In this document: piece after piece, positions 2,982-50,692 of the stretch
Numbering within the stretch: position 1 is the first letter of the stretch
Layout of the letters: each line of letters begins with the position of its first letter
Origin: Planctomycetota bacterium
Lineage (GTDB): Bacteria > Planctomycetota > Planctomycetia > Gemmatales > Gemmataceae
NCBI GenBank assembly: GCA_021413735.1
Contig: JAIOPV010000196.1
Location: 20,023 to 84,022 of the forward strand
DNA: 64,000 nt
Direction: 5' to 3'
Translations under genes and position numbers: made by a program
Notes under the pieces: model-generated
Database searches by the model: none
What the model saw: only the letters and a program-made list of their open reading frames with translations
What the model was told of the DNA's origin: nothing

Positions 2982-3055
2982 GGACACGAAGACAAGGGAA
3001 CACGGAGACAAGGAGAGAATACCAAAATCCGTGGCTCCGTGTCCCTTCTCCCCCA
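2982..3055. repeat. Low-complexity-armed inverted repeat (words ACACGAAGACAAGGGA / ACACGGAGACAAGGAG with partial complementary arm)
   Basis: GGGAACACGGAGACAAGG pairs imperfectly with CCGTGGCTCCGTGTCCC downstream. Confidence 0.7.
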
Positions 3056-3062
3056 CTCCGCT

Positions 3063-7420: not shown

Positions 7421-7479
7421 GTGGTCCCAACGGGACCACGATATCGCAATGCCAGCCCCGGTGGGGCTGGTGCTAAACG
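7421..7479. repeat. Two adjacent hairpins (GTGGTCCCAACGGGACCAC; CCAGCCCCGGTGGGGCTGG) followed by a GCTAAAC REP-like tail
   Basis: Direct palindrome reading; tail GCTAAAC shared with 9730-9755 and 12771-12800. Confidence 0.7.
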
Positions 7480-9719
7480 GATTGCAAACGCCACTTCAGC
7501 AGCGAATAACGTTGCTTCGTCTCGGCGCTGTTGACGGCCTTCCACAGCGCCTTGCGACTACCTACAAGCGCGACGAGCTTTCGACCGCGTGTGATGCCGG
7601 TGTAGATCAGGTTTCGCTGCAACATCGTGAAGTGCTGGTAATGCACCGGGATTATCACGGCCGGATATTCGCTACCCTGCGACTTGTGGATTGAGCAGGC
7701 ATACGCCAGTTGCAGTTCGTCGAGATCGTTGAAGTCGTACTCCACGGGGCGGCCATCGAACTCGACCACGAGCATCTGATCGTCCGCATCGACACCCACC
7801 ACGCGGCCGATGTCGCCGTTGAAGACCTCGCGGTCGTAGTTGTTCTTCATCTGCATCACCTTGTCGCCCGTGCGGAAGGTGTTGTCGAATCGCTTCACTT
7901 CGTCGATGCCGTGCCGCGGCGGGTTCAACGCCGCCTGCAACTCGCGGTTCAGATTCGCGACGCCGAGCGTGGTCTTCACCTGCGGGCTGAGCACCTGCAC
8001 ATCGCGGAACGCATCGAGGCCGAACTTCTTGGGGATGCGTTCCGTCACCATCTGGCGAATGATGCCGATGACTTGGTCGGGTTCGTTCGCTTCGATGAAG
8101 TAGAAATCGCCGCTGCCACCGGGCGGAGCAGATTCGGGCACTTCGCCCCGGTTGACCGAGTGAGCCGCCCGCACGATCCAACTGCTGCCAGCCTGCCGGT
8201 GAACTTCTGTGAGCCTCGCGACGGGCACCGTTTTCGATTCGATGAGATCGGTCAGCACCGAACCAGCGCCGACAGACGGAAGTTGATCGACGTCGCCGAC
8301 GAACACGACGCACGCCCACGGCGGCACCGCCTGCAACAAGCGATTCATCAGTACGACATCGACCATCGACGTTTCATCGACGACGAGCAAATCGGCATCG
8401 AGCGGGTTCTCGCGGCCACGCTTGAAGCCGCCGACTCCCGGATCGAATTCGAGCAGTCGGTGAATGGTCTTCGCTTCGCGGCCGGTGGATTCCGTGAGGC
8501 GTTTCGCGGCTCGGCCAGTGGGAGCGCAGAGCAGCACTCGCAGCGACTTCGCCAGGAAAATCTCGATGATGGCGCGAACGATGGTGGTCTTGCCGGTGCC
8601 GGGACCGCCGGTCACGACGACCATTTTGTTCGCGACCGCTTCCTGAATCGCGACTCGCTGACTGCCCGCGAGTTGGATTCCCATTTTCTTCTCGACCCAC
8701 GCAATCGCCGGACTCATGTCCACCGCCGGCAGCGGGTGCGGTCCTTTGGCGAGAGCCTTGATTGCACGAGCTGTGCCGAGTTCCGCGAGGAACAGCGACT
8801 TGAGGAAGATCAGGCTTTCGGAAGGCGGAGGGCGGAGGGCGGAAGGCGGAGCAGCTTGGTTTTCCTCCCCCTTCTGCTCTCCGCCTTCCGCCTTCCCAGC
8901 AGAGTCTCGCACCACTTCGTCCACGATCCGCAATTGCTCAATCGCGTCCGCGATGCCTTTCTCGGGGATCTCCGTCATCTCGACGGCACGCGCACAAAGT
9001 AGCTCCTCGGGGTAGCCGACGTGTCCGTCACCGCTCGCTTCCGAGAGAACGTGACGCACCGCAGCCTGTGCGCGAAACGGCGAATCGGGCGGTATGCCGA
9101 GCTTCTTCGCGAGTTCATCCGCGGTTGCGAAGCCGACGCCCCAGATGTCGGCACTGAGTCGATACGGGTTCGCCTTGATGAGTTCGATCGCCTGATCGCC
9201 GTAGGTCTTGTAGATGCGAACGGCACGAGCCGTCCCGATGCCGTGCGACTGCAAGAACACCATGATCTTTCGCGATTCGCGTTGTTCCTCCCAGCTCTTG
9301 CGAATCTTCTCGATCATCTTCGCGCCGATGCCCTTCACCTGCGTCAAAAACGTCGGCGACTTCTCCAGCACCTCCAGCGTGCTCTCTTTGAACACGTCCA
9401 CGATCCGCTGTGCGAACTTCGGACCGATGCCCTTGATGAGCCCGCTGCCGAGATACTTTGCGATCCCCTCGGCGGTGTGCGGCGGGTTCGTCTTGATCTC
9501 GCTGGCCTTGAACTGCTGGCCATGCGTGCGGTCGGTGGTCCACTCCCCGGAAGCGGAGACGTATTCCCCCGCGACGACCTGCTGCGTGTGCCCGACAACG
9601 GTGACGAGATCGCGGTGGCCGGGAGCCAGTACCCGCAGCACGCAGTATCCGTTATCCAGATTGTGAAACGTGATCCGCTCGACCACGCCCGTCACTTGTT
9701 CGGCCACATGAAACCTCAT
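7473..9719 (-). CDS. recD2: ATP-dependent RecD2-like DNA helicase
   Basis: HhH region YLGSGLIKGIGPKFAQRIVDVF; Walker A VVTGGPGTGKTTIVRAI; DLLVVDETSMVDVVLMNRLL; C-terminal AYACSIHKSQGSEYPAVIIPV. Confidence 0.93.
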   Translation of the reverse strand: MRFHVAEQVTGVVERITFHNLDNGYCVLRVLAPGHRDLVTVVGHTQQVVAGEYVSASGEWTTDRTHGQQFKASEIKTNPPHTAEGIAKYLGSGLIKGIGPKFAQRIVDVFKESTLEVLEKSPTFLTQVKGIGAKMIEKIRKSWEEQRESRKIMVFLQSHGIGTARAVRIYKTYGDQAIELIKANPYRLSADIWGVGFATADELAKKLGIPPDSPFRAQAAVRHVLSEASGDGHVGYPEELLCARAVEMTEIPEKGIADAIEQLRIVDEVVRDSAGKAEGGEQKGEENQAAPPSALRPPPSESLIFLKSLFLAELGTARAIKALAKGPHPLPAVDMSPAIAWVEKKMGIQLAGSQRVAIQEAVANKMVVVTGGPGTGKTTIVRAIIEIFLAKSLRVLLCAPTGRAAKRLTESTGREAKTIHRLLEFDPGVGGFKRGRENPLDADLLVVDETSMVDVVLMNRLLQAVPPWACVVFVGDVDQLPSVGAGSVLTDLIESKTVPVARLTEVHRQAGSSWIVRAAHSVNRGEVPESAPPGGSGDFYFIEANEPDQVIGIIRQMVTERIPKKFGLDAFRDVQVLSPQVKTTLGVANLNRELQAALNPPRHGIDEVKRFDNTFRTGDKVMQMKNNYDREVFNGDIGRVVGVDADDQMLVVEFDGRPVEYDFNDLDELQLAYACSIHKSQGSEYPAVIIPVHYQHFTMLQRNLIYTGITRGRKLVALVGSRKALWKAVNSAETKQRYSLLKWRLQSV
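8820..8896. repeat. Low-complexity-armed inverted repeat inside recD2 (GGAAGGCGGAGGGCGGAGGGCGGAAGGCGGAGCAG ... CTGCTCTCCGCCTTCCGCCTTCC)
   Basis: Arms complementary by eye; in frame, encodes KAEGGEQKGEENQAAPPSALRPPP. Confidence 0.8.
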
Positions 9720-11513: not shown

Positions 11514-11548
11514 ATTGTGGTCCGCTCGCTCCGCGAGCGGACCACAAT
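11514..11548. repeat. Palindrome ATTGTGGTCCGCTCGCTCCGCGAGCGGACCACAAT
   Basis: Perfect palindromic arms with 3-nt loop; same core as 1877-1972. Confidence 0.9.
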
Positions 11549-38162: not shown

Positions 38163-38268
38163 CTCGTGTTTGGTGTTTCGTGTTTTGTGTTTAGGATTGA
38201 AACGTCCTCCTTCTCGCTGGTGTGATCGTCTTTTGACAAAACACTAAACACCCAACACAAAACACGAC
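38163..38268. repeat. Low-complexity-armed inverted repeat (words CGTGTTTGGTGTTT / CGTGTTTTGTGTTT)
   Basis: 38163-38193 pairs imperfectly with 38233-38267 (AAACACTAAACACCCAACACAAAACACG). Confidence 0.8.
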
Positions 38269-39380: not shown

Positions 39381-39468
39381 GAAGTCGTAAAGTCGTAAAG
39401 TCGAAAACAGACATTCGGCTCTTGGTCCCCGACTTTATGACTTTCGACGTTACGACTTTACGACTTGG
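39380..39468. repeat. Low-complexity-armed inverted repeat (word AAGTCGTA/AAGTCGAA)
   Basis: AAGTCGTAAAGTCGTAAAGTCGAAA versus TTCGACGTTACGACTTTACGACTT; arms of about 25 nt with one mismatch. Confidence 0.9.
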
Positions 39469-50642: not shown

Positions 50643-50692
50643 GCGTAGCCGCGACCCGAAGGGGAACGTTCCCCTTCGGGTCGCGGCTACGC
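50643..50692. repeat. 50-bp perfect palindrome GCGTAGCCGCGACCCGAAGGGGAAC|GTTCCCCTTCGGGTCGCGGCTACGC
   Basis: 25-nt arms, zero loop, zero mismatches by direct reading; two head-to-head REP-like units. Confidence 0.95.

Follow-up and report, generated by a model that had tools for sequence, protein, structure and literature searches.

Rickettsia palindromic elements (RPEs; Ogata et al. 2000) are short dispersed palindromes that are located in frame in conserved proteins (PMC2229807, PMC10969869) and have a length of about 105–146 bp (PMC2229807). REPs are also found inside ORFs, many of them in repair genes, and different REPs have been reported at about the same recB site in two Xanthomonas species (PMC3733652). 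The heptameric G-rich repeats of Xanthomonas and Nostoc are dispersed and consist of about four units, whereby the arrays are under-represented in coding regions (PMC4692102). The Correia element exists in a 107-bp and a 155-bp form, of which the stop-free one is present within genes and the stop-rich one in intergenic DNA (PMC2229807). Here, we analyzed a palindromic element within the recD2 gene of a planctomycete, located in a window of 64,000 nt, which is the whole stretch of DNA under study. The genome of the window is designated G000, and all other G-numbers refer to genomes of the same genus. The kind of event is already known from coding REPs and from the different REPs at the recB site. 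As far as our searches reach, the planctomycete setting, the number of repeat families in one loop, and the inverted architecture of 7-base words with frequent copies in genes are new.

The RPEs are the closest counterpart, and the recD2 element seems to work like an RPE but is not one of them. It is likewise a dispersed palindrome that lies in frame in unrelated conserved genes (14 of 26 copies), which agrees with the likeness to RPEs that had been proposed in the first-pass annotation. The planctomycete host, the length of 77 bp, the arms made of 7-base words, and the unrelated spacers set it apart from the RPE description, as does the finding that in most congeners this recD2 site is occupied by a different palindrome. 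With REPs and REPINs, the elements of this genus share the dispersal and the arrangement as inverted pairs of short hairpins, together with Y1_Tnp matches in 16 of 19 congeners, and the recD2 elements of G008 and G015 look REPIN-like. However, the GGCGGA element is composed of tandem 7-base words, and inspection by eye of the 26 listed copies revealed no GTAG or CGTC tag bounding them. Some other repeat families of G000 do begin with GTAG. With regard to MITEs, terminal inverted repeats are present and the internal sequence is not conserved. Like the heptameric repeats, the element consists of dispersed G-rich tandem 7-base units, which here form paired inverted arrays. Compared to other inverted repeats, the GGCGGA family is over-represented in genes. 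The contrast between a stop-free and a stop-rich type known from the Correia element recurs here between the GGCGGA family and other families, whereas the Correia sequence is conserved and contains no word arrays.

The recD2 element and its host gene

The host gene (7473–9719, minus strand) encodes an ATP-dependent helicase of the RecD2 type with 748 aa, as judged from the ORF and its domain matches, and its translation contains ...VVRDSAGKAEGGEQKGEENQAAPPSALRPPPSESLIFLK.... The domain search yielded OB_YrrC (residues 7–80), HHH_RecD2 (145–234), AAA_30 (349–529), SH3_13 (590–654), and UvrD_C_2 (671–719), and the protein matches the structure PDB 3e1s with an E-value of 2e-84. By inverted-repeat search and TRF, the palindrome was resolved into a G-rich arm of about 4.5 GGCGGA-type 7-base units (8820–8851, plus strand), a spacer (8852–8864), and a C-rich arm (8865–8896, plus strand), which is the inverted copy of the first. 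The arms comprise 32 nt each, are 88% complementary, and are separated by 13 nt that are not common to other family copies, as seen from the spacers of 26 copies. TRF reported period-7 arrays at 8819–8851 and 8880–8896, and the palindrome score is reached by 0.3% of random 140-nt windows from the window sequence. Thus, a GGCGGA-word inverted repeat in frame in recD2, as described in the first-pass annotation, was recovered in its arms, arrays, and reading frame, and the encoded residues and the flanking RecD2 segments are those that had been stated there. Rfam showed no RNA family match within the window.

The element (8820–8896) encodes residues 275–300 of RecD2 on the minus strand, which fall between HHH_RecD2 (145–234) and the helicase core (from residue 349). 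In an AlphaFold2 model built from 30 RecD2 sequences (mean pLDDT 84), residues 281–295 form the sole internal stretch with a pLDDT below 50 and constitute the turn between the strands 269–272 and 303–306. The insert is therefore predicted to sit in a disordered beta-hairpin loop. Elsewhere, G000 contains another fragment of a RecD2-like helicase (C138:15356–16558), which is 56% identical and has an open frame of 480 aa.

The GGCGGA family across the genome

The inverted-repeat survey covered 1.26 of the 9.8 Mb of G000, with genes predicted by a home-made gene caller. It yielded 236 inverted repeats with a score of at least 15, compared to none in first-order Markov shuffles. Although 81% of the surveyed sequence was called coding, only 14 of the 236 repeats were located well inside genes. 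A different picture was obtained for copies similar to the one in recD2, since 14 of the 26 collected GGCGGA pairs lie in frame inside genes, as opposed to 9 of 228 other inverted repeats in the 1.26-Mb survey (Fisher p about 1e-10). The sequence GGCGGARGGCGGARGGC occurs 59 times in G000, 27 times in G001, and at most four times in each of the other 17 genomes. As judged from sequence motifs, the host proteins include MutS2, threonine synthase, homoserine dehydrogenase, a PSD1-type protein, an RluD-type pseudouridine synthase, a two-domain ABC ATPase, a GlcD/GlcF-like (glycolate-oxidase-like) protein with two copies, and two protein kinases. The two kinases carry their elements (L285:1538–1600 and L289:1512–1573) at the same place, between the HRD.KPAN catalytic loop and DFG.

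The GGCGGAA word contains no stop codon in any of the six frames, so that an insertion in any phase can be read through. This may explain why GGCGGA copies are found in genes more often than other inverted repeats, and it suggests a simple rule for gene-resident repeats. The survival of a copy within a gene would then depend on its length and spacer, whereby the filter itself is inferred.

The spacers of the 26 copies are unrelated to each other. A unit variant in one arm is mirrored in the other arm of the same element, but the variants differ from element to element. In a sample of 34 inverted repeats with tandem arms from the G000 stretches L161–L220 and the window, 25 have a period of 7, and in 32 the 5' arm is richer in G than in C, whatever the word. 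All ten GGCGGA pairs of this sample have the G-rich arm first. The binomial p of 7e-8 overstates this polarity, because members of a family do not count as independent observations. Word arrays with fixed strand polarity and unconserved spacers represent an unexplained repeat type. Six literal repeat words had no earlier description in the searched literature except for unrelated papers on human genes, most subscription journals being outside the scope of this search. One GGCGGA element (G000:C36:19420–19481; L173, L024) lies about 20 bases from what appears by eye to be a tRNA gene. Inverted repeats of the CACGGATGAACACAGATGA and ATCCGCAGATTACACAGATGG types occur in G000 at C24:17032, C171:49454, C136:30443, and C8:47237, and similar words may exist in other phyla.

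Orthologous sites in congeners

RecD2 was compared in 18 genomes of the same genus and in ten other genera, the named relatives being Gemmata and Gemmataceae. In 12 of the 18 genomes, the linker contains a palindrome with a score of at least 31 (p ≤ 0.006 each against coding windows), which in all 12 is the best palindrome of the recD2 gene. The linkers of G012, G009, and G007 hold composite or eroded C-rich elements, and in G016 one arm remains. No linker palindrome was present in RecD2 of G002, G011, and G017, nor in the ten other genera, where the linker is short in nearly all cases. Thus, the Pro/Glu segment is not kept in RecD2 of relatives that lack the palindrome. The earlier idea of a lineage-specific insertion of about 25 residues held insofar as the palindrome is absent from the linkers of the ten other genera. 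A simple addition of this size was rejected, because the linker is only about eight codons longer than in G011 and G017, whose linkers comprise 96 nt of unrelated sequence. Overall, linker length ranges from 96 to 294 nt.

What recurs in these congeners is the site and not the sequence, as most of them hold another palindrome in the RecD2 linker. GGCGGA words are found in G000, GCGGAAC words in G013 and G016, hairpin pairs ending in GGCGARC in G008, G015, G003, and G014, GAAGCCGCTCGCGGCTTCG in G004, and C-rich elements in G001, G005–G007, G009, G010, and G012. According to the RecD2 tree, even the sisters G000, G008, and G013 carry different elements, and the same applies to G001 and G004. Of the 105 pairs of linkers compared, 79 show no more similarity than shuffled sequences do. 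The words of G000 and G013 are about one base apart in each 7-mer. The linker elements are dispersed in their own genomes, with 78 exact matches in G008, 14 in G004, and 5 and 13 in G013 and G016, respectively, compared to zero in reversed-pattern controls. Coding palindromic repeats are thereby extended to a planctomycete genus, in which one helicase loop provides an unusual natural series of many repeat families in close relatives together with empty controls. Such a series makes the neutrality of the inserts, the frequency of their arrival, and the moving agent testable.

Y1 transposase domains (PF01797) were identified in 16 of 19 congeners, with 11 matches in G000 and none in G011, G017, and G007. 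None of the four repeat patterns searched for occurs in the small genomes G011 and G017, which also lack a RecD2 palindrome and serve as a natural repeat-poor control. Since G007 has palindromic remnants in its RecD2 linker without a Y1_Tnp match, the link between Y1_Tnp and the linker palindromes is suggestive only.

A second informative site is QueA. In G000, the loop that precedes the LRPFCGET segment contains a C-rich element, whereas this loop is short and empty in most congeners. G015 carries the same C-rich family in the same loop (L241 and L242) but in the opposite orientation: the internal sequences give a far higher alignment score in reverse complement (117 vs. 83.5), and the last 28 bases are identical. 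One family in one loop in two orientations argues for independent insertions. The QueA loop of G010 holds a different palindrome.

Furthermore, 11 other genes were compared at 21 orthologous sites in G008 and G013, where the orthologues align on both sides of the in-gene elements. Four of these sites (ABC and threonine synthase in G013, GlcF and GlcD in G008) carry a palindrome built from a different word (each p < 0.01 against coding windows; binomial 5e-5). An ungapped detector found four inverted repeats at the 21 sites, and when the background comprised all windows, intergenic ones among them, 4 of 21 pass the 5% level (p = 0.02), so that the same-site pattern is only moderately positive under this stricter test. 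MutS2 and homoserine dehydrogenase in G013 were borderline (p 0.048 each), and further sites called visually (MutS2, Hom, PSD1b, and Kin2) are suggestive only. RluD shows other repeat words in some congeners, and an ATP-grasp insert is private to G000. Several of the 21 sites are empty, including PSD1a, L020, and Kin1. At these three, the G000 element stands in place of 27–39 nt of the ancestral loop, which is not what simple transposition would produce. At the filled and empty pairs of QueA, PSD1a, and L020, no target-site duplication was visible by eye.

Origin of the inserts

We consider it probable, at roughly 0.75, that the RecD2 segment originated from the in-frame insertion of a dispersed mobile palindromic repeat, and that several families keep inserting so that loops are hit again. 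Small mobile repeats would thus seem to invade conserved proteins repeatedly and leave them intact. This is based on the dispersal of the repeats, the in-frame copies in many genes, the one loop with different families, the QueA orientations, and the disorder in the model. Across these genomes, 7-base-word inverted repeats, REPIN-like pairs ending in GGCGARC, and C-rich MITE-like elements would insert. Copies that break a gene would be lost, while stop-free copies that keep the frame could persist in loops with room for additional residues. Such loops might then be hit again by the family active in the respective species, often with replacement of earlier content. The copies would spread by transposition, the REPIN-like families presumably being moved by Y1 (RAYT-type) transposases, purifying selection would do the filtering, and the inserts themselves would be near-neutral. 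Several points count against repeated insertion, among them the lack of a visible target-site duplication, the replacement of ancestral sequence at PSD1a, L020, and Kin1, and the linker remnants of G007, which has no Y1_Tnp match. In addition, the unrelated spacers of the GGCGGA copies are unlike copies of one transposon, and an additional cause or a very high rate of insertion would be required for one linker to be occupied so often.

The different words, free spacers, and mirrored arms, together with a G-rich 5' arm in 32 of 34 repeats, led us to a tentative and rather doubtful reading, in which the 7-base-word inverted repeats form a distinct self-propagating class that is made by fold-back without a classical transposase, while tolerant coding loops swap palindromes. 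Such repeats could be made by end addition and fold-back copying during break repair.

It is unlikely, although several observations fit, that an ancestral palindrome of the genus persists and is rewritten or exchanged in place by hairpin cleavage and repair, with other genomic palindromes as the source, by arm-to-arm conversion, or by drift of the words. Such turnover would account for a site that is fixed across the RecD2 tree while its sequence changes, for the replacement of existing sequence at PSD1a, L020, and Kin1, for the unit variants that are mirrored within but differ between elements, and for the G000 and G013 words that are about one base apart. However, the opposite orientations in QueA and the many empty congeners need separate insertions, the sequences of the 79 linker pairs at shuffle level are unrelated, and no clear spacer homology was seen by eye at shared sites.

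We regard selection for a function of the palindrome as improbable, whether as a hairpin at the RNA or DNA level in the recD2 message or as a flexible charged helicase linker, with any palindrome being favoured. The presence of a palindrome at the same place in 12 of 18 genomes would suit this idea, as would the observation that coding REPs of other bacteria often reside in DNA repair genes (PMC3733652), but RecD2 of G011, G017, G002, and the ten other genera retains an open frame without a palindrome, the GGCGGA family also resides at unrelated loops of unrelated proteins, and the linker length is variable (96 to 294 nt). An ordinary low-complexity linker that is palindromic by chance or composition is hardly credible, since, although the segment is disordered in the model and such linkers diverge quickly, the palindrome scores are far above those of coding windows in 12 genomes, shuffles gave no inverted repeats, and the arms match dispersed repeats of the same genomes. 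A chance palindrome was excluded by the Markov shuffles and the coding-window controls.

The first-pass annotation had also assigned the architecture of the recD2 element to three intergenic elements of the window. This was confirmed for the elements at 38164–38265 (I10; GTGTTTG-type words, period 7; p = 0.01) and 39382–39466 (I5; AAGTCGTA words, period 8; p = 0.003), both found by inverted-repeat search and TRF. It applies weakly to the one at 2982–3056 (GACACGGAGACAAGG-type words; p = 0.026), which was missed by the inverted-repeat search. Synteny with G008 around these intergenic elements is weak. Further palindromes of the window are located at 1856–1993, 11514–11548, and 50643–50692. Two of them belong to a GTGGTCCGCTCGC family, and the one at 50643–50692 is a perfect 25-bp palindrome, GCGTAGCCGCGACCCGAAGGGGAAC.
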